From positions 1,550,001 through 1,614,000 of the forward strand of contig JAHLKI010000001.1 in NCBI GenBank assembly GCA_025602905.1: a stretch of 64,000 nt of DNA. The letters run 5' to 3'. Under the pieces are notes generated by a model. That model did no database searches and was not told the DNA's origin. It saw nothing but the letters and a program-made list of their open reading frames with translations. Shown piece by piece: positions 3,888 to 55,414 of the stretch. Every line of letters begins with the position of its first letter. Positions within the stretch are counted from its first letter, which is position 1. Both the position numbers and the translations under genes were made by a program. Source of the stretch: Phlyctochytrium arcticum. Its lineage: Eukaryota; Chytridiomycota; Chytridiomycetes; Chytridiales; Chytridiaceae.

Positions 3888-5651
3888 ATGAGCCTTCCAT
3901 TACCCGAACCGACCGACGAAGACCAGCGTTGGGCGCGATCGGTCACCTGCTCCATCTCGACCGTACGTGAGAACGGTGAACCCGTTGGCGGTCTCGGGTA
4001 TCACCTTGGCTGCGGTTGGACACTGTCGGCCTCACATCTGCTGCACTCGCAAGGGCATATTGAAAACGCAGAGTTCACGTTCCTGAAGACCCAGGACAAG
4101 ACCCAGGACGATCCAACCCCGAATGAGATTACTCCGGACGAGCTGCTGGTGTTTCCTTGGCATGAAGGGCGACATGCGTACGGTCACAAGATTCCCACGG
4201 TTTGGGAAGGTGCAGAAGAGCCTTGTCCAGATCTAGTTTTGATCCAAGTCGGTAATCCAGTGCCGCCTTACGCCGGTGCAAAGAGCCTTAACGCTAGGTC
4301 ATGGGCATCGGCTGACGAGGTCATCACAACCCTCAATTCAGTTGCTGAACGCTACTTACTCAACTTCATGGGAGATTTGTCGGACATATAAGGTTGCGTA
4401 CCTGCCGGTGCTGCGCACCATTGCCGCTCAGCGGGCTCAGCCCGGACCAAAAGACCTCAAATGGAAACCTTTTAAAATTTTCTGGGATTCTGTGAGCGGA
4501 TCAACGCACAGGGTCGCCCGCGTCGATGTTGGATTGCAATCAGGATACAGTGGTGCACCCGCATTTTTCAAAAACCTAAACCGCTTGGAATTGCTGGGCA
4601 CCATATATCAATCCTACGACGACGCAACGTACGTTTGTGTCAAACCGGATACTCTACAGTCGGACAAGATCTGGCCACGGAAATCAACCAGCTGAACGGT
4701 ATTACCAAAAACCCAACTCAGCTTTGTTCGCAAGTATCGACGACAGAGTAAAAGATGCGGAGGGAAAAATTGCGGATCTGCTCAAGAATTACAACGCACA
4801 TTGTCTCGCTGGGCCAGATGCGTTGAAACCGTTCCTCCCACTAAGGAAGAGCTGGCCCTCCATCAGGCTCGCGTTTGCTTCAACAACGTGCTGCAGGCCG
4901 CAGCCTGGTGTCGGTACTACGAACTACTACCAAAGGCGTTCAATCCGTCGTGTGTCTTCTGGTATACATCCGTTCCCTACGAAGACTCGCTCGAGTTTTG
5001 TCTGCCATTCACGCTTCTGTCAAAAGCAGTGCTAATTGATAAGTATGGACAGCCACTACCTTGCTTGAAGGAGAAGGCAGACACGCACCAATTTTGCTTC
5101 ATGCACGTACATACCAAAATCACCCAAGAAGAGGTTCAAAATCGAGGCAAGAAATTGGTTATCAAGGAGTCTGACCTGGCCGAGACAAACTTCCGCTTTG
5201 CGCGTAAAAAAATTTCGTCAGGCCCAAGCTCAACTACTAATTACGAGAAGATTCAGAAGCGGGGCGTGCAACAGGCGCGGCAGGAAGCGACTCCACCAAA
5301 GCTCAAAAAGAAAAAGAACCAACCTATTTCGTCAAAGGACTGGGCAGAAATACGGAAATCCGAAGACAAGAATGTTCAAATTGCCTGGATACCGCGCTCG
5401 CCGCGTTAAACAATCCCGAGTTTCGAACGGACATGTTGTTCCGCACGCGATGGAATTCACTGTGCGAAGCAGCTGGAGCCTCGGGAAATCTTAAAGACGC
5501 ATTCGATGAGCTCAAGGACTCCTGGTTTCGGGGAACAACCACAGAGGATGAACGAAATGAGCTGATAGGGAAAGAGAAAGTGCTGAAGGTGGATGCAGCT
5601 CAGGCGGCGGACCAGTCGACCAGTACTGACAACCCAGAGTCCAAGTCTTGA
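3888..5651 (+). CDS. trypsin-like serine protease domain protein, 514 aa
   Basis: Four exons: 3888-4319, 4393-4628, 4722-5203 and 5257-5651. The introns are 73, 93 and 53 nt; the last has a CTAAT branch site. Splicing joins four frames into one protein. The N-terminal ~200 residues carry a chymotrypsin-fold triad in order: His50 (LSASHLLH), Asp115 (CPDLVLIQV) and Ser197 in GYSGAP followed by LELLGTIY. There is no signal peptide, so it is probably intracellular, as are many fungal trypsin-like domain proteins. The C-terminal 300 residues (FNNVLQAAAWCRYYELL and a Lys-rich linker) match nothing I know. Without splicing the locus looks frameshifted; with it, it looks intact. The second intron's acceptor is the least certain. 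Confidence 0.6.
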
Positions 5652-28367: not shown

Positions 28368-30412
28368 CTAGTTTTCCTGATGGAAAGTGTAGATAGTGTT
28401 GGTGGTTGTAAAGCTCAAGAGGTCCGCAATAAACTTGTCCAACTTGCCGCAGGCCAGCGGATCTTGATCCTTCACTTGATCTTCTAGACGGAAATAGAAA
28501 TTCATAATCTCCTCACCTGCGGCTTTAACCTTTCTCTTTCTGGAGTCACGGGCAACATCAATCTCGGGCAGTACGACCGGTACAGACACTGTCTCCCTTC
28601 CTTCGTAAACCTCGTACCCACACTCTTCGAACATAATGGCGTAACTTTCCCATCGCTCGGGTGTCAATATGCGACTGTCGCTGCAACTGTCTGCATGGAA
28701 CACATGCTTACATGGTAGCTGATACTGTCGCGCAAACAAGCAGTGACAATCACCCTCTAGTTGAGGGATGGGTTTTCCTTTAGCGATACGCTTCTCCACC
28801 GCCATATACTGATCGATCAGGAGTCTCTGGATGGGGTACGGAAACTTCCCGATTTCGGGGTAGGCGTTGAGGCGTTTCAAGGTCTTGGTACGAAATACAG
28901 TCGCTGTACGGTCGGCCTCTAGCCAGCGTTGTTTATTGACCTTCACCAGAGCGCGGGCTGCTCGCAAAAGACTGCATCGCTTCGTGCATTTCCCCGGGGC
29001 CTTCACCAATCTATGGTATGACTCGAGGGCATTTGTAGAGGTGATTTGCAGTAGAACAGGCGAGTGGTGCCTTGCGGCCATTGACCAGCTCTCGATATCG
29101 GTCGATTTCGACCAGTACGTGGTGAGATAGGTACTAATCGTTTGGGGTGCGCCGGCAATCGCCTCTTCCACCAATTGACGTGCCCCAAGTCGAGTGGTTT
29201 TGTTCATGGCATGTAACATCTTTCGGAACGTTGAAGGGTGTGTTGATGTTTTTCTCATCAATGTCCGAATTAAATGTACCTAAGAATCATTCAACAAGTT
29301 GAATTCCAAGGTAACTCAAAATAGATCACATTACCTTGCAGAACTTCACGTATACCTCCTCTTCTCCAGCCTCCATTCCCCGAAAGGTTTTGTGGATTCC
29401 GTTCGTTTCCACATGCGATTGATCAATCAAAAAGTAGCGTGGTTGCCAGGTGCCGAATCCACCAGCAGATACCATATCGCGCAATGTCTGAAGGCCCCCG
29501 TTAACCGCGCAAGCATTTTCAACGCTAGTATAAAATTGGCCGGCAGGAATCCAGCTGTCGTGTTTGTCGCGGACCATCACCGTGAAGAGACGCCAATCGT
29601 AGATGTTGGTCTTGTGGCAGCTGTACCAGATAGCTACTCGACACCAAAGTCTCGAGGCCACGAGCAGTTGCAAAAGCAAATCCCTCCGGGACATTCCCCT
29701 CGTCGGATGCAATCAAAAACCGCTTAACTTCATAGCCTGCACCTTGAAGATCTAAGATTGCTTGGGAGACGTCCTCGTCAAGCGATGAAGGGGGTGCAGC
29801 TGCAACCTTACGCGCCTTCCATCGTTTGTTCCAAACGGCTCGAGCCGTGATGCGACTAAGCCCAAGGGCCGCAGCTCTGCAAGGGGAGGTGGACCGCGCA
29901 ATAATCTCTGGCAAAGCGTCAGCAATCTGGCAAGGCGCATATGGTTGATTGGCTTCTTTCTGGATGAATTCGTTAGCTTGGGAGCACAGGGTAACGTCAT
30001 CCACATCTGATATGTGGTGGCCGGCGGAATGGGTACTGTAATCCGGGTGCATTTGAATAGTAACGGTCCCGTTTGCGGGATTTTTGATCACTAGCAAACG
30101 AGCCGCACAATCGACACTGTTGAAAACAGACGTGATGCGTCTCTTCTTTGAAGGTTCTCCCTCCTTGTCGGCACGAGGCCCGGACGACTTTCGATGTTTC
30201 TTCAATTTGCATTTGTAGCTAGTTGTTAAAACGCCGTCGGCGCGCTTGTTAGTGTCGTATACGTTCCAAAAGTTGTCGCCCAGCTTCCATTGTTCGTTGA
30301 AATCGTGAAGACGTAAAGTGAAGGGTTGACCTGGATTGAACAAACGCTGGCGTAGTGGCCAAATACTGGAGTCCTCTGCTCTAAGAGCATTCGCGCGGAT
30401 TTGTGCGGACAT
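28368..30412 (-). pseudogene. MULE-type transposase with SWIM finger, broken
   Basis: Minus strand, reading down from 30412. It has an N-terminal Cys/His region of FAR1/FLYWCH style (YKCKLKKH...DCAARL...HPDYSTHSAGHH). A DDE transposase core follows (FTVMVRDKHDSWIP, YFLIDQSHVETNGI, KFCK|VHLIRTL across an intron at 29280-29334). A SWIM zinc finger (DCHCLFARQYQLPCKHVFH) closes it. Two defects are visible. A one-base frame change near 29640 separates AFATARGLETL from WYSCHKTNIYDWRL. The expected first catalytic Asp of the D-S-T-H-K-T-N motif is Tyr. Terminal inverted repeats were not located. This is a dead copy, unless the frame change is an unrecognised splice. Confidence 0.8.
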
Positions 30413-30936
30413 GGTTCTAAAGAGTCGGCAATGTTAAAATAGCGAAGAAGTTGGTAAAGAGCACAGTACATGACAGATATTGAGTAAAACTGATTCTTTG
30501 TGAGTGAGTAGCAAAGTGCAAGGGTGTCTGGGGGTAATACGGGCCCGCGATCTTGAACGTCGAGTATCGCAAAACTCACTCAACGCGACTGGCAAGATCC
30601 TGGGCAAGATCCAAAATCCAAATTTCCAAAACCAAAGTCCGCTCCATTTAACGTTTTGGGAAGAAATGAGTTGGATCAAACCACTGGTTCTTCTACGCCC
30701 GATACGCACCCAGTTTCTGGAGTTTATTTCTGGAACGATGGACAATTTGTTTTTGCGCCGCTATCAACAGATACCCCAAAGAGGACAACCATTTTGTGTT
30801 GGCTGTGTGTTGGCGAGCTACCGTGAGTTTTCACATATAAAAGGGTACGCTTCGGCCCCCCCGCGGCCCACCATGACGAAGAAAGAATTTTTCCACACAA
30901 ATCGGATTACCTGCCGGATAACATCCAATCACAAAG
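30413..30936. other. intergenic, promoter of arrestin gene
   Basis: No gene supported. An open frame at 30504-31013 overlaps the arrestin start in another frame and shows no domain. Confidence 0.45.
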
Positions 30937-47257: not shown

Positions 47258-48050
47258 TGGAGGAACCATACACAACAAGGCGGGAAGTATCGTCTTCTTT
47301 CAACAAGCGGTGCCTTTGGATCGTTGATTCGTTGTCCAAAATGTGGTTTTCCCACCAAGTGGAAGTAGGGTAGGAGCTTTGGTTTCGACAGGTTTCGCGC
47401 GACACGTGTTTTGTTCATGCGCAGCAACAGAGTTTGCAGATTCCAAAAAATCATTTCCCCATCAGGGAATCGAACCCTGGCCGCCACGGTGAGAGCGTGG
47501 AATCCTAACCACTGGACCAATGAGGATTTATGAAATGGTGAGTCTAAATGGTGAATAAATACTTATTTTAGGCTCCGGCCTTGAAGTTACATTTCCCTGT
47601 TTGTCATTTGGGAAGGGCAAATGAGTGCCTGTAATGCGTTATGTCAAGTCAGGATGGGGGTGGACACTCTGGACCCCGATGGAATCGAGAGGTCAAGCTG
47701 ATGGTGTTGATGGTGAACGATATGTGCTGGACGGTACGGTTCCGGCAGCCAAATGTCCCAAGAAGGCAAAGAATTGCGGAAGGAGAGCAAGGTATCAATT
47801 TCATTGAGGACGCCAAAATTATAGCACCAACGTTTTTTGGCATTTCCAATTGAAAGTGCTCACCTGTTTATAATAAACTTGTTGTAAAGCTGGTTCTCAG
47901 CTTCAATCCGGCAGTCTCATTTTTCATTTGTGGCGTATGTGGCAAAATCCCAAGACTGGCCAATGACTGTCCTTTATTTAGGACAGTAGGAAAAAAGGAG
48001 TATAGAAAGGGCAATTTCTGGAAGTGACAAGAGGGGAGTGCAGCATGTGT
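47258..48050. other. intergenic with tRNA-Glu
   Basis: Apart from the tRNA at 47455-47526, no gene is supported. Overlapping ~65-codon frames at 47625-47853 show no domain. Confidence 0.45.
47455..47526 (-). tRNA. tRNA-Glu (anticodon CTC)
   Basis: A 72-nt cloverleaf. Acceptor TCCTCAT pairs with ATGGGGA (one T-G pair). The anticodon arm is CCACG-CTCTCAC-CGTGG, and the T arm contains GGTTCGATTCC. A T run follows on the minus strand. It resembles the tRNA-Glu(TTC) at 35982 over most of its length. Confidence 0.95.
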
Positions 48051-48449
48051 TTAGGTATAGATTATGTGTGAGAGAGAGAGAGGGAGAGAGAAAGGGAGAG
48101 CGCGGGACGGTTTGTTTTGGGATTCTGCGGAATGCCAAGGGCCTCTGATCTCTCTTTCATGCCAGAACAAGAAGCCGAGGTTTCTGGCCGCATTCGTGTC
48201 CCTGTTCCAAGTCGTCCTGCAGCGGTTGCAGCGACGCACGCCGTACAGCTCTGACTTGGTGCCATCCTCGTGAAGGATCGACAGCGCTTGCAAGTCCCTA
48301 ACAACCGACGAATGTCTGAATGTCAGTCCTCTTGCAACCACTAGCTGGGATACCGCGACAAACCTACCATTTCTTCTGCTCCTCCCTTTCGTTGGTGTTG
48401 TCGTCAAGCTGCATCCCCTCACGCATCGAATCATCCTTCCAACGTTCAA
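48051..48449 (-). pseudogene. degenerate Fanzor C-terminal fragment
   Basis: The frame carries YGVRRCNRCRTTWNRDTNAA followed by RNLGFLFWHERE. This is the second zinc half-site and the RuvC-III Asp motif of TnpB/Fanzor nucleases. It aligns with YAVRHCPKCETNWNRDVNAA and GNIGFVFWYER in the intact gene about 1 kb upstream on the same strand. The preceding residues (VVRDLQALSILHEDGTKSEL) also align. No RuvC-I motif or first zinc half-site was found in the frame. The stop lies beside a 48067-48108 GA-rich run. It looks like a decayed relative, not an exact duplicate. Confidence 0.75.
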
Positions 48450-48921
48450 CTAAAGTGGTCTTTTGTTCTTTTCTCAAACTTCATCAAGGACCATTCATTG
48501 TCGCGTGTACTCCGGCTCGGTTCTACCCGGTTTTATGCTGGGTTTATGCGAATGGAGAGAGCGGAGAGAGCTGGCAAGATCATCGACATACACAAAATCG
48601 ATCTTGTGCAAAAACTTGGGTGCTTCACTTTGGATGTCGAGAAGAACTTCAACGTTATACTGTATTGGTGCTCACTGGCAGTGCGTGCTGGTATATATGA
48701 CTTGTCAAAAACAGCTCTCGAAACCGAGGCAAACTTATTGTAGGTGTCTCTGACGACGACAAAGAGCATATCATATGTGACAGAATGCACTCGACAGGTA
48801 CATCATCTCCCGCCATCAAATCAAATTGCTCTGTTGAGAGCAGAGGAGAAATCTGGACCATCCCGATGAGTGATGTAGTCAAGAGAGATGATTTTAATGA
48901 CTTTAAGAAAGGCAAGGTTGG
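48450..48921. other. spacer between Fanzor gene and fragment
   Basis: No gene supported. In TnpB and Fanzor systems the guide RNA is commonly encoded at or just past the 3' end of the nuclease gene, so this is where one would look. I did not identify a specific RNA structure. Confidence 0.4.
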
Positions 48922-51900
48922 CTATAGATTGTGCGAACAGGGAAAATGCCGAAAATAATGATAGATATACAATTTAAAGATCTCGCTCAAGCCCTGCGAC
49001 GTCTGGCGGCTACTCAGATCAAGATATTGACGACTGGGAAACCCTGTGTACTGATACCCAAGTGGGCGGCGGCCCGCGCCATTGCACCGCTCATACCAGA
49101 ATACAAATCCAATATTTCCCGCAGCGTTGACGTCGCGGTTCCAATTTGTTTCGCACTTTGGGCAATGGCGTACCGCGTAGATGGTGGGACCATCTGAGTT
49201 GTTTGAATCGACAAGCTGCGCCCGCACGTCCCATCCTTTATTCGCCACGAGCATGGCCGCATTGTCGTCGTCATCCGGCTCGTCCAACTCCTCGACAACT
49301 TCCTCTTGCTCCTCATCCAGCAAGCCGACCGGTGCCACCACGCCCTTCTCTCCCACATCCCCCTCCTCTTTGAAATTCGTGATGCGGCATTTGTAACAAA
49401 CCCTTGAAGTCCGGTGCTCGTTTACCAGGACTAGAGTCACATGCCGGCTAAGATGTTGGCGTATGGCTTTATGAGGGGCCCCCCGACCGCCCCTTTTAAC
49501 ATTGAATTGTGCAGCTCCGTAGGCCACTACAATTTCGGATCTTGCCCTATGGGCATTGCTTGGACCCTTGACCCGTTTTGCCAGCGCATGCAACGTCTTT
49601 TGAAGTCGGATGTGCTTGAAAAATCGCCAATTGGCTTCTTTGGCGTGATACGCACGCAAGTCTGAGTAAGAAGCCAGGATGCTGCTCAGATGATTTCGGA
49701 AGCGCGCCAGGTTGACGGTTTTGGCTGAGGGTATGATGCTCTGGAGGGCATCCACATTCGTGTTCACAGAAAAGGCTTTCTTGTGCGCAAGCCTCAACTT
49801 GTCGACATAGTTGTGTCCTGCACTGTGTGCCCATTCTCTGCCCGAAAACGTCGCCGTGTGTGGTCTTGCCAGCTCCCTCATTCTCCTTTTGGCATCCGGT
49901 TTTAACGGGTACTTAGACTTGATGTGGTTGGTTTTAAAATCTTCCTCGAAGGACGGCATCCGGGAGCAAAGTGAATCGTCCTCTTCAAACTTCAACTGCG
50001 GCTCATAAACTGTCACCACGTCACTATGTCCGGGATCTACGGCCTTGAAGATTGTTTGGGTTGTAACCGACACATTTGATGGTGTGAGGGGTGTGGTTGA
50101 TCTTTTTGGTCGCGAACACACAAATGAACAGGAATGACCATCTGTGGTCATGAAAAAGGAGAAATTGCGCTTGGAATTGCGGTTTGGCGTACTATGGAAT
50201 GAATGAAGCAGCTAAGAGTTAGGGGTCTTGCTCTGGTTTGCCACAGCGACTTTTCTTAACCTACTTTGCATTGAAATATGGAACGCGGATGCCACGGAGG
50301 CGCTCCAGTTCGAATGAGTCCAACCATAACCCGAATTTCCACGACAGAGGTTGCGTTTTATCGGCAAAAAACGTGTAACGTTCAGTGTCGATATACCGCC
50401 ATAGATGGTGAAGGCACTGCGTATCGATCTTCATATTGCGCGGAGCCAATGATGGCCGTGGCAGCAAGGTCCACAGACGGATTGGGCTGACTTTTACTTG
50501 ATCGCTCACGCCAGGTTCGTGAAACTTTCCATTGTGAAGTTCACTACGTGTTCTACTTGCAAGATTCTGAACAAGCTTCAGGATGCTTCCAGGAACACAC
50601 CCGCGCCGTTTTTTATCTTTTCCCCGGCTCCTTCCATTCTGAAGACTGTCGGGAACACTCTTGGTGTCATTGTTCGCCGCTGAGAGCAATGCTTTCGAAA
50701 GGCGCCGGCGCATATGTTTCGAAATCCGAACCGAGTCCGCAATCTCTGCGTCGTGTACGATACGCTCCACTTGGTGTCGAGCCCAAGAGACCGAAACTTG
50801 AGATTTGGCTTTGGTGCTCGCACCAATTTTGTCAATGTTTTTGGACGATGCTGATTGGTCGTTGAGCTCCTCCAAATATCTGAGCATGTGAATATGGATT
50901 GGAAAGTAGGATTGGCACCAGTTTCCTGATGAGTCCATCTTCGACTTGCATATGGGCAATCCATTGGGATCGTTGTCGACTACACGTTGCGCGATTTCGT
51001 TGAATATGGCGAGAATACTTTCGCCAGCAGCAGGAATCGCGAGAAGGGCAATCCGACGCTTTGCGTCCGGCTTCTCTCCCGGACGACTCTGCAAGAAAAC
51101 AATATCACCAGCGCTTGAGGGGGCACGCCATTGGGGAATCGGTGGGACTTCGACATTGTTTTGGCGGGCAAGGATATATGCCTGCCCCTCGTTGTAGTAC
51201 ATCTTCTTGGCCATGCGTGCGGCCAAGAATTTGCAGTCGGACGCTTGCCATTTGCCGGCCAACTCCTCTCGCGATGTTAGAATGATCTCCAGCCGTACTG
51301 CAAAGTACTGCGCGATCCTCGTCAGGAGATGCGTAGTTACGTGCTGGCGAGTAAGCTCGCCTAGCTCCTCCGCCGCGTATGTCAAAGGATTTGTCAGACC
51401 GGCACGCGATGCCCAAGAGAGGGTGCTTGGGCGCGAGTTGCAATGCAATTCGAAGGCTGCGGATACACGGCCATCTTCAAATTGAAAGTTCGAGAGGTCC
51501 GGGGTGTCTCCGTCAACAACAGACACGGATTGAAAACATTTTGTTATCAATGCCGCAAGCTCGGTTTTGTTGCCGAAAGGAAGTCGTTTTTGGGGGGTGG
51601 CGTTGATCTCGGCCAAGGTGTATAGTGAAAACACCTGTCCACCCTCGAACACGATCTGATTGTATCTGTGATTACAAATTTTAGTGGATGTGAAGGATTA
51701 AGGGCTGGTCGTCAAAAAAGTCCAATCTCCCACCTGTAAACAGCATCACGGATGACGGTGACCACTTCTGGATACCGTGCGATTCCCCCTGACCCGTCAG
51801 CAGTACCTGCGAGGCCAATCTTCACAGCAAAAGTTGCCCTTGACTGTGGCTTTTGTTCATTGCCTTCTGTCGTTCTGGCGCCCCCATCGTCTTTGGGATC

Positions 51901-52658
51901 GTACATGGCGTCCATCGGTAGCAGTTCCCGCTGAAGACGTGCAATCGGAACATTGGCCCGTTTACCTCTCGTGGTCTTGTCCTTCTTGGAAGCCAGGCCA
52001 CTGGTTGTACTCGAAGTATTTTGAAGTTCGGCTTTCAAAGCCGCGATTTCAGCCTTTGATTTACCGCGGAACCGGCACTTGGCAAAGGTGCTTCGACTGT
52101 GGGGCGGAATTTCTTCCTCGGAAGCTGATGGATTCATCCGGCGACATGGACATTTGGAAGCTTGGTTCCCTATAATATCGAATTTGCGTCAGACTTTCTG
52201 CAAAACATTACCCTGACGAAAAAACTTACTTTGTCGCTGGATTTCCTTTGCCGGAGCAAATGGAGACGAGACTGGGATCCAACCTCCTGGGCTTCTGTTC
52301 GGTGGTGTAGTCTCCCTTTCCGCCCCTTCAGCTGCCGACTCGGCGTTCCTTTGACGCGTGCTGGAAGACGCTGCGGCCGTCCCCAAGTCTGGACTACCGC
52401 TCTCTAGTGACAGCAAACTTATCAGAAAAGAAATGACGTAGATTGTAACATCAATAGTAGAAACGCACCTCGCTGATGAATGGACCACGCCAGTGCCTCG
52501 TCGGCTTCCAACTGCTCCGGCATTGTCGAAGTCGGAGGTGTGTGGGTTACTAGTGAAGGAGACCCGGGCGTCACTGCCTTCTGTTTGCCTTTCCATCTCG
52601 CGGGGGGAGGAGTCGCAGAGGTTGGACTGGTAGCCCGTCGTTTTCCCTTTCCCGACAT
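48922..52658 (-). CDS. Fanzor1-type RNA-guided nuclease, 1,156 aa
   Basis: Five exons: 52469-52658, 52230-52403, 51734-52169, 50265-51665 and 48922-50191. Introns (65, 60, 68, 73 nt) are all GT-AG and in frame. The first 100 residues are disordered and basic. Residues ~210-735 form the recognition part (VTVIRDAVYR|YNQIVFEGGQ). The C-terminal third is the RuvC nuclease. It has RuvC-I AVDPGHSDVVTVYEP (Asp ~786) and VVAYGAAQF. Next is VNEHRTSRVCYKC, with Glu ~992 (the position used by TnpB/Fanzor proteins with a rearranged active site) and the first zinc half-site. HCPKCETNWNRDVNAAGNI supplies the second half-site and RuvC-III Asp ~1087. All three acidic residues and four cysteines are present, so the gene looks catalytically intact. 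Fanzors are eukaryotic TnpB relatives; one from the chytrid Spizellomyces punctatus is an established RNA-guided DNA nuclease. Activity here is inferred. Confidence 0.9.
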
Positions 52659-52669
52659 GAATGAGACGA

Positions 52670-52965
52670 GAGACGGGAGAGGAAGGATGGATAATCAAGT
52701 CGAGACGAGAGAAGAACGATGGATAATCAAGTCGAGAGACGAGAGACGAGAGAGGAACGATGGATAATCAAGTCGAGAGACGAGAGAGGAAGGATGGATA
52801 ATCAAGTCGAGACGAGAGACGAGAGAGGAACGATGGATAATCAAGTCGAGACGAGAGACGAGAGAGGAACGATGGATAATCAAGTCGAGACGAGAGACGA
52901 GAGAGGAAGGATGGATAATCAAGTCGAGACGAGAGAAGAACGATGGATAATCAAGTCGTTTCCGA
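52670..52965. repeat. minisatellite beside the Fanzor start codon
   Basis: Eight copies of GATGGATAATCAAGTCGAGA, each separated by 1-2 units of GACGAGA or AGAGGAAC/AGGAAG. Unit lengths run about 32-42 bp. The array begins within about 15 bp of the Fanzor ATG (minus strand), so it lies in its 5' UTR or core promoter. The last copy ends at about 52960. Confidence 0.9.
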
Positions 52966-53379
52966 ATGGGATGGACCTTCTCAGGTAGATCTTTGACGCG
53001 TGAGGCGACTCCGACCGCACGCCGCAGACCCGGCTGCTTACGAAACGGGGACTCTAGCGGCTAAAACCCCAGCTGAAACAACGCGGCGACGGGCGACTGC
53101 TTACGAAACGGGGACTCTCGCGAGACGTGAAACGACGCGGCGATGGGCGGCGGCGCTTTGCCCCGGTTTTCCGCGCAGCCTCTGAATCCTCTCGCGAGCC
53201 GCCCCGCCTTCTTCCGCCTTCTTCCGATCGTGGCCTCAGTCCTGCACCAAAGCAATCAGGGTCTTTCTTTTTTTTTCGTGCGGGCACGGCAGTTCTCGGG
53301 TGAGTTTAATTGCCAAGCTTTTCTGATCCTTTTTTTTCGCAGGACGCCATCTCCCCTCCAGCAGTATAAAAGGCCGAGG
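52966..53379. repeat. GC-rich ~60-bp imperfect tandem repeat and spacer
   Basis: TGCTTACGAAACGGGGACTC occurs at 53035 and 53098, each followed by a GAAAC-ACGCGGCGA segment. CTTCCGCCTTCTTCCG is doubled at 53208-53226. A TATAAAA box lies at 53365-53371. No gene. Confidence 0.6.
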
Positions 53380-53855
53380 ATGGGCTCTGCAACCCGCCGC
53401 CTAAGTTATCTGTCATCTCCACCGCACCGTCTTCCACCCTCATCTACACTCTGCGGACCGTCCGCCTACCCATCTGTGACCCATGCAACATGCATCATTC
53501 CGCTTGCGACTCACCCTCCTTCGGCCTTTGGTTGTTCAGCATCGTCTTCTCTGGAAACTTTCCCGGTTCGTATCCTGTTAAATTTATTTGTTGTAGACTC
53601 ATCACTCACTCACTTTCTGGTTTTCAGAGCGTGTCGCACCTTACCCGGATGAACCAGATGACTAGGAGAAGCAGCACAACCTCACGACACATCTCTGGCT
53701 GCAGAAGCACTATTTCCTTCCTTTGCCACAAGAAATCAAAACTCTCTCCCTCGCCACAAGGATACAACCACCTAGTCGGCACGATGCGATCTCCTGACTG
53801 CACGAATCTCTTTGGGCTACCAGCGAAACTGACTCAAGGCAAGGGGGGTCATTAA
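53380..53855 (+). CDS. possible small spliced gene, 137 aa
   Basis: Exons 53380-53565 and 53628-53855, joined by a good 62-nt intron (TTTTCAG acceptor), keep one frame and end in TAA. The product is Ser/Pro-rich without a known domain. A TATAAAA box at 53365-53371 is only about 10 bp before this ATG, so transcription may start inside the ORF and the true start may be later, or the unit may be non-coding. Confidence 0.22.
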
Positions 53856-55414
53856 ACTACCTTTCCCGGCGTAGGCGGGACGCGGCTGTATTGGAAGGCG
53901 TCGTCATACAATTTGTAGGAAGCCGCAGGGTCGAGGGGCACGACTCAATGGTAAGGTGTTTGTCCTTGTATCTGGGTCCTACGAGGGTATGCTAATATTT
54001 TCCCATTTTCAGTCTATCCCCTCCGACCAAATGGCCGCGTACGCCATTCCATTAAAAAATGCTTTACGCGGCCCGTGTCGATCTCGATCGACGTAAAGAG
54101 TAGTCAGTGACGGCGGCTCTAACTAAACCCGAGGTAATTTCCGTCTCTTAGTTTCAAATCTCGCTCATCATGCGCTAATTATTTTTTCATCCAATTGTTT
54201 CCTCATTTGCCTCTTGTAATTTTATCATCTTGTATCTCCGTACTGTACATTTTACCTACGGGCGCGTTTGTATTTTCTCTCTCTCTGTACTGTACATTTT
54301 GCCTCCGGGCGCGTAAGGGTTACATATTACAGTCGAAAAAGGCCCGAGGGGAGAAAGCAGTCAATTTCAAAGACAAAAAGATGGGCTCCAAATCGGGGAA
54401 TTCGTTTCATCGGCTACGCTTGCTCCGCAATCCAAAGGGATATTCTTTTGTAATGTAAATTTCGTGTGGGGAAAATATGAAAATTGGGGTCAACCGGAAA
54501 CCTCTCTGCTAAAATCCGGAAAAGCAAGACAGAACCTATGAAATACTTGAATCTACTTTTATTCCTCTCACAACATCGAGATCCGTAGTGTCATCAAGAT
54601 TGCATTCCAAGACCGCAACGAGTACATCTACACTGATGAGAATGACAATAACAGCGCCTTTTTTTCCATCTTTCCAACTAAAAGTATGAAAATCAAACGA
54701 TCCCTATATCAGTGACATTGGTTGTCCATTTACTTTGTCGAATCAGGTAACGTTCCTGTTCAATTCTTACACAGCGAGACTTTTTGTCAAAGTCCGTGGG
54801 AACATTTTCCGGGCGATAAATGGAGCGCGCGCGGTTTTGCATTCCGGATGTGAGTTGTTCTTTCCCTCTTGTTGATAACGACATGTATCGTTGAAACTAC
54901 TTAAACGATAATTTTAATCCCTACATTCACAATACCAGTATTACCCGTTTATCTGCTTCGCACTGCCCCCTCGACCACTAACCTATCTATGCATCATACC
55001 GCATACTTCTCTCGCTCAAAGTCTTCCTATTAAAACACCCGAGTGGCACGGACAGCATGTATGCTGGGTTTTGAGCAGGCGGCGGGTGATGAGGTTGACG
55101 GTTTTCCGGAATTGACGAGGATAGAGGTGGTGATGTGGATCGAGTACAGTACACAAAGACGGTATGATCATCGTTCGTTACGTCTTCATTCTTGGGTGTT
55201 CCTCGAGCAGAAATACTGCCTCACTATGGGGCTCTTATTAATCTCCCACCCCGATTAAACAGGATCTTTGCCATTTCAACAAATACTTGATTGACCCCAA
55301 AAAAAAGACCAGATATACAAACGAGGAAAAAACAACCAACCCCAAAACCCAAAAGAAGAGCATATACTATTTACACCCAAACCACAACAAAGTGTAGAAC
55401 ATATACATCACGGA
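53856..55414. other. long intergenic, no supported gene
   Basis: About 1.5 kb. CTCTGTACTGTACATTTTRCC is nearly duplicated at 54236-54256 and 54284-54304, each followed by a C/T-C-GGGCGCGT word. Open frames at 54195-54458 and 55043-55258 show no domain. Confidence 0.45.

Follow-up and report, generated by a model that had tools for sequence, protein, structure and literature searches.

A 64,000-nucleotide stretch of the genome of Phlyctochytrium arcticum, by taxonomy a chytrid like Spizellomyces (assembly GCA_025602905.1, contig JAHLKI010000001.1, forward-strand positions 1,550,001 to 1,614,000; hereafter the window, in whose own numbering positions are given), carries a gene that, judging from its sequence, very probably belongs to the Fanzor1 lineage and is predicted to encode an unusually large omegaRNA-guided RuvC DNA endonuclease. 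On the minus strand, from 52658 to 48922, five exons of this gene join into an open frame of 1,156 amino acids (aa) (Table 1). An original prediction, made from the letters of the window, had described an intact-looking five-exon gene at this place, with all three RuvC acidic residues and both zinc half-sites. This first reading of the gene is correct and careful: the frame is open through GT-AG sites and its introns are matched in a paralogue, D786, E992 and D1087 lie exactly where they had been located, and the half-sites C999/C1002 and C1077/C1080 are both present.

Gene structure

A scan for GT-AG sites in four regions, in which a donor/acceptor filter left 3, 1, 2 and 2 candidates, yielded two stop-free splice models whose sole difference is the acceptor of intron 1, where an alternative site 15 nucleotides (nt) downstream likewise preserves the frame. 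The five-exon structure is supported by comparison with a diverged paralogue, L009 on contig C28, which is the closest one (identity 39% in the recognition half and 44% in the nuclease half). L009 can be spliced at places matching those of the window gene, with phases 1, 1, 2 and 2 in both, its junctions having been chosen by a script partly through similarity to the window protein, a procedure that favours a matching outcome. At intron 4 of L009 the script's top pair scored 314 but leaves an in-frame stop, the alternative scoring 309; as GTAAGT..TATATCAG at 4071-4139, this intron has phase 2 like that of the window gene, and the frame then stays open as far as the natural stop. L009 is also 47% identical over 32 aa in the exon-1 start region (tblastn), and the C-x-C-x(20-22)-C motif of exon 3 is found again in L009, L012 and L045. 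The last ~43 aa of the window protein, after RRPLGY, have no counterpart in L009; this C-terminal tail may follow a shifted stop, and the protein minus the tail measures about 1,110 aa.

A different structure is given by the public annotation, in which a hypothetical protein of 720 aa from P. arcticum (DFS34DRAFT_30699, P0001) covers the recognition half. This model retains intron 4 and ends at its TAG, without the nuclease half; it also differs at the start, and a later intron-2 acceptor skips the first part of exon 3, a stretch conserved in L009 and L012. Were intron 4 indeed kept in the transcript, the locus would yield a recognition-only product, which might be a relic or else a natural regulator that binds guides or DNA, and the end of the 720-aa protein at the stop codon within this intron speaks for such a product. 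We nevertheless hold it to be very unlikely, as the intron is bounded by GTAGGT..CCATAG, the 39-44% identical paralogue can accommodate an intron at the corresponding position and in the same phase, the nuclease half beyond it is open and conserved with every catalytic residue present, and the public model is unreliable at this gene because it also skips the conserved exon-3 stretch. Given the intron matches in L009 and the conservation of the exon-3 cysteine motif, the spliced five-exon model is therefore better supported than the public one. One missed intron can cost a gene model its nuclease half, and surveys of annotated proteins may therefore undercount Fanzors.

Active site and Fanzor identity

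The RuvC D-E-D triad, split over three subdomains, is present in the window protein. The rearranged position of the catalytic glutamate, as originally proposed, agrees with the alignment of E992 on E541 of SpuFz1 (numbering offset counted by hand from the alignment): six residues lie between E992 and C999, and alanine, not glutamate, occupies the canonical position (A957). D786 and D1087 lie outside the PDB alignments and were assigned by motif position and paralogue alignment. SpuFz1 (PDB 8gkh) is the sole PDB match of the nuclease half up to E=1 (phmmer, E=1.7e-4), and again the sole one up to E=1 with a profile made from four family members (E=1e-7). The profile search that had been suggested as a check gave 29.5 bits for PF07282 (TNB), above the cut-off of 26.3, with the best stretch at profile positions 42-60 of 60; this zinc-ribbon domain is located between RuvC-II and RuvC-III.

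In SpuFz1, residues D383, N385, E541 and D606 coordinate the catalytic magnesium ions (PMC10432273). A DPG motif in RuvC1 together with a glutamate placed six residues before the zinc finger has been described as the Fanzor fingerprint, and the pair of DPG and alternative glutamate (Ealt) occurs in <1% of TnpB-family homologues (PMC10711439); the window protein carries both. Membership of the gene in Fanzor, as had been predicted, is thus supported by the fingerprints, the zinc ribbon, the Pfam match and the homology to SpuFz1, and we infer that the label 'programmable nuclease' may apply to it.

Table 1. Features of the window gene and of its relatives (window positions unless a contig, C, is named)
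Feature	Position	Strand	Remarks
Exon 1	52469..52658	-	start codon at 52658; N-terminus basic, low-complexity
Intron 1	52404..52468	-	GTGCGT..CACTAG, 65 nt, phase 1; L009 phase-1 intron at matching place
Exon 2	52230..52403	-	splice model
Intron 2	52170..52229	-	GTAAGT..TTATAG, 60 nt, phase 1; matched in L009
Exon 3	51734..52169	-	holds conserved C-x-C-x22-C block
Codons C128, C130, C153 of C-x-C-x(20-22)-C motif	52075..52152	-	
Intron 3	51666..51733	-	68 nt, phase 2; same intron in public model P0001; phase-2 intron in L009
Exon 4, recognition (REC/WED-like) half	50265..51665	-	39% identity to L009 over 466 aa
Intron 4	50192..50264	-	GTAGGT..CCATAG, 73 nt, phase 2; retained in public model
Exon 5, RuvC nuclease and zinc-ribbon half	48922..50191	-	through stop codon
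RuvC-I D786	50035..50037	-	in DPG motif (D786-P787-G788)
A957	49522..49524	-	at canonical RuvC-II glutamate position; placed by motif
E992, alternative RuvC-II glutamate	49417..49419	-	aligned with SpuFz1 E541
Zinc half-site 1	49387..49398	-	C999-x-x-C1002
Zinc half-site 2	49153..49164	-	C1077-x-x-C1080
RuvC-III D1087	49132..49134	-	
Expected right end and guide RNA of window element	48700..49030	-	placed by analogy with clade B and SpuFz1
Degraded C-terminal fragment of second Fanzor	48153..48296	-	directly downstream of window gene
Long-type copy (L009)	C28		frame change in exon 3, TAA in exon 4
Long-type copies	C12, C48, C2:694k, C13:394k		broken or partial
Long-type copy	C13:320-330k		split by LTR pair
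Long-type copy	C7		nuclease half only
Long-type copies	C15, C56		without nuclease half

Recognition half and outside relatives

The original prediction could match the long recognition half to nothing. It does match paralogues within the same genome; outside it the claim holds, in so far as protein searches among 5.8 billion sequences, in which the 7,992 and 7,997 candidates sharing most words were scored and which reach fairly close kin, found only the window gene's own products, of which the 720-aa hypothetical protein is the sole annotated one. The nuclease half was matched in the second of these searches only by the window's own frame (P0002), and no orthologue in another species was found among the best candidates scored. 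Two peptide patterns applied to viral contigs matched 24 stretches and 0 relatives. Elongin-C matches of the recognition half, at E 0.85 and worse, were dismissed as chance. It is plausible, though not proven, that the window gene and its kin form a new subfamily. In the open-access literature, and hence outside the large Fanzor surveys that it does not include, no co-mention of Fanzor and Phlyctochytrium was found; one paper there mentions Fanzor together with chytrid. Introns alone are not new, because one large survey is said to report intron-bearing Fanzors.

Relatives elsewhere in the genome

Genome searches with the recognition and nuclease halves, whose counts are lower bounds and in which a copy split by an insertion was counted once, found at least 17 other matching places: nine broken or partial copies of the long type (Table 1), one fragment adjoining the gene, and seven on which no judgement was passed. 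The last group (C6, C5, C16, C14, C2:594k, C32 and C4) comprises short matches or, at C6, the nuclease half alone; C2:594k holds a 355-aa open frame, seemingly of another Fanzor clade. Of the long-type copies on which a judgement was passed, only the window gene has an unbroken frame; the frame change in L012 rests on tblastn frames. The adjoining fragment gave a tblastn identity of 46% over 48 aa and 21.8 bits for PF07282, under the cut-off. Overall, PF07282 matches 21 places in the genome.

Within the window the gene remains the best candidate for a programmable nuclease, as originally claimed, although elsewhere the genome contains a conventional Fanzor-like frame, open over 623 aa in a single exon (L055:195-2066, minus strand, at C8:349k), with relatives found in Borealophlyctis, Geranomyces, Thoreauomyces and Rhizophlyctis. 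A further open frame (L053:383-2026, plus strand, at C2:1679k) has a polymerase/RNase H look, by eye presumably Copia-type, and runs into a TnpB-like C-terminus.

Two Fanzor copies on C2 and C13 (L011:1-1575 and L012:405-1975) share about 5.65 kb at 98%, including an upstream frame that is RCC1-like by eye, which looks like a segmental duplication. A 239-bp repeat (L011:5719-5952; C13:322275-327602) has at least 37 further copies at 96-97%, and occurs as a solo copy inside one Fanzor copy and as a full pair that splits another. It is probably a long terminal repeat (LTR), because ten same-strand pairs are spaced 5.09-5.13 kb apart; this paired spacing led us to reject a miniature inverted-repeat transposable element in L011.

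Selection and frame integrity

In the RuvC half of the copies forming clade B, nonsynonymous (dN) and synonymous (dS) rates were 0.17 and 1.09 for L010/L013, and 0.23 and 1.15 for L010/L014, a sign of past purifying selection on the clade-B nuclease half. Between the window gene and L009 the proportions of differing nonsynonymous and synonymous sites were 0.40-0.43 (pN) and 0.80-0.87 (pS), the first well under the second, with dS saturated. When random substitutions were simulated in the conserved part of the window frame, it stayed stop-free in 30% of cases at 1% substitution, 8% at 2% and 0.9% at 4%; the window copy was therefore constrained until recently, or is a recent arrival.

Element ends of the window copy

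The upstream flank (52500-54700) gave no second copy in the genome in a search that skips very common words, and the region 47500-49100 gave three partial matches (331 bases at 88%, 37 and 30), all starting from its tRNA end and none at a Fanzor. Exact inverted matches between 47300-48930 and 52640-54600 are no longer than 11 nt; five consist of GA-rich low-complexity sequence and one of 10 nt (47616/54202) was taken as chance, so that no convincing terminal repeats were found at the window copy. No transposase domain was found in five frames flanking the gene. With neither a second copy nor a transposase nor convincing terminal repeats found, the window copy looks immobile at present.

Elsewhere in the window, two frames on the minus strand (28368-30433) have by eye the look of a MULE/SWIM-type transposase, for which Pfam found no family. 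Directly upstream of the start codon lies a minisatellite (52663-52958) of about 8 copies with 36-39-bp units.

The tail of the window copy folds ordinarily (z-scores -1.6 to +1.8), and its comparison with seven other tails revealed no similarity beyond shuffles, the score of the best pair, with L013, being reached by 11/200.

A candidate guide-RNA region in clade B

The comparison of copies, originally proposed as a way to define element ends, gave none for the window copy, whose flanks and tails were compared, but did so in clade B. L010 and L011, which are 97% identical, share sequence through '..ACATTACT' and then diverge completely, and this point is taken as the exact right end because the flanks beyond it differ completely. 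The right end directly adjoins the end of the gene: its opening bases include the stop codon of L010. L011 has a solo LTR between the two. The conserved right end carries 'ACTMGCTGGGATTGYCACGTGAMGRCATC', and of 31 bases 29 are shared by L010 and L013, 28 by L010 and L014, and 26 by L013 and L014. Since synonymous sites of L010 and L013 differ at 57.5%, two or fewer differences in this block would have a chance of 3e-9, a figure to be read with the block having been picked after being seen. The two differences between L010 and L013 form one stem pair, TGCC/GGCA vs TGTC/GACA, in which pairing is kept; in L014 the stem is that of L010 and the differences lie outside it. Of the predicted minimum-energy structures, those of L010 and L014 contain the 4-bp stem and that of L013 lacks it, and folding z-scores of the clade-B tails are ordinary (-2.0 to +1.3). 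A search for a 25-nt right-end pattern with as many as 3 mismatches gave 4 places in the genome, each behind a Fanzor copy, and 0 for the reversed control.

The guide RNA of SpuFz1 derives from the stretch between stop codon and right end and from 14-15 nt of the adjoining DNA (PMC10432273). Because the SpuFz1 guide RNA arises at that location, the clade-B block suggests itself, by analogy, as a candidate 3' portion of a guide RNA; a rival reading takes it as a DNA end recognised by a transposase. As folding energies are ordinary, it is conservation and one compensatory pair that argue for an RNA at this place. Behind the window gene the comparison of tails found no counterpart of the block.

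Interpretation

We propose the following mechanism for the spliced protein. Its long REC/WED lobe would bind a guide RNA that is encoded on the 3' side of the gene and has a 3' tail copied from flanking DNA; the ribonucleoprotein would locate a matching sequence next to a short target-adjacent motif, where the guide would pair with one strand and the predicted D786/E992/D1087 RuvC site would cut both. Such cuts may favour the persistence or copying of the element that carries the gene, as proposed for TnpB.

Besides the public model, several results weigh against this proposal. At the place of the SpuFz1 metal ligand N385 the window protein has, by motif position, G788. The recognition half is without a significant PDB sequence match, and single-sequence structure models were discarded, with mean predicted local distance difference test scores of 33.8 (exon 5) and 33.4 (exon 4). 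Profile-profile alignment (hhalign) gave 4.5% probability against a TnpB profile, though the Ealt/zinc motif was paired, and 0.2% against an L055-type profile; neither is used as support. For the window copy, neither a guide RNA nor an end of the element could be located. Nine long-type relatives are broken or partial, and the window copy may likewise be decaying; dN/dS lies nearer neutral in the closer pairs L009/L015 (0.57-0.59) and L010/L012 (0.67), which look partly relaxed, as expected of decaying copies.

It is accordingly quite possible, although we would not favour it, that the gene is a recently inactivated transposon relic, its frame still undecayed and functionless today. The state of the nine relatives, the lack of a transposase, convincing terminal repeats or a second copy in the searches above, and the C-terminal tail that may follow a shifted stop are all points for such a relic; its 1,156-codon frame is intact, however, and a few percent of neutral substitutions would usually break it. 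The gene might instead be a domesticated single-copy host Fanzor, serving for example in element control or genome rearrangement. An intact frame beside broken kin, with no second copy of gene or flanks found at the DNA level, would fit domestication, but we think it unlikely: host-level conservation is unproven, as the best ~8,000 candidates included no orthologue in other species, and a degraded Fanzor fragment adjoins the gene. Equally doubtful is the bolder proposition that the gene is the intact founder of a Fanzor1 subfamily of chytrids, characterised by a recognition lobe of increased size and an additional C-x-C-x(20-22)-C module at the N-terminus, and that it is now a single-copy RNA-guided nuclease, domesticated by the host once its transposon kin had decayed.

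If the Fanzor1 nuclease predicted here is active, its longer recognition lobe would probe the role of extra REC mass in R-loop handling. The clade-B right end provides a concrete guide-RNA prediction.

Comparison with known systems

SpuFz1 (Spizellomyces punctatus; PDB 8gkh, 9ceu-9cez) and the window protein have in common the RuvC core, the alternative glutamate and the zinc ribbon; the SpuFz1 features compared are those of PMC10432273. The two differ in size and organisation. The SPu-1 protein is encoded in one frame of 633 aa (PMC3627910), and the SpuFz1 element, which measures ~2.1 kb and has inverted repeats of 30 nt, is present at 42 loci, full or partial (PMC10432273), whereas the window gene encodes 1,156 aa in five exons, with no inverted repeats found. 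The RuvC-I aspartate is preceded by 785 residues in the window protein and by 382 in SpuFz1. The extra length consists of a low-complexity basic N-terminal region of ~230 aa with the cysteine motif and of a recognition half that is ~170-190 residues longer than that of SpuFz1, by our own estimate of the core start.

The RuvC fingerprint pair of DPG and Ealt is shared with the cyanobacterial TnpB 'pro-Fanzors' (PMC10711439). It is also present in the consensus of a TnpB alignment (A3) whose named rows are cyanobacterial; these are shorter (347-608 aa), and the profile match to the window family is not significant. The L055-type chytrid frames of the same genome share the DPG motif, the TEEYTTKQCPFC motif and PF07282 with the window gene, but comprise 623 aa in one open frame and show no profile match to the window family.

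Most Fanzor1 proteins have 600-700 aa (PMC11423790) and some reach about 800 aa (PMC10711439); to this family the window gene and its kin would add a large, divergent, intron-bearing Fanzor1-like chytrid group. Enlargement is likewise seen in PpFz1, the Fanzor1 of Parasitella parasitica, where it is due to an inserted domain of ~100 aa within RuvC (PMC11423790), while the extra length of the window protein lies mainly in its N-terminal region and recognition half.

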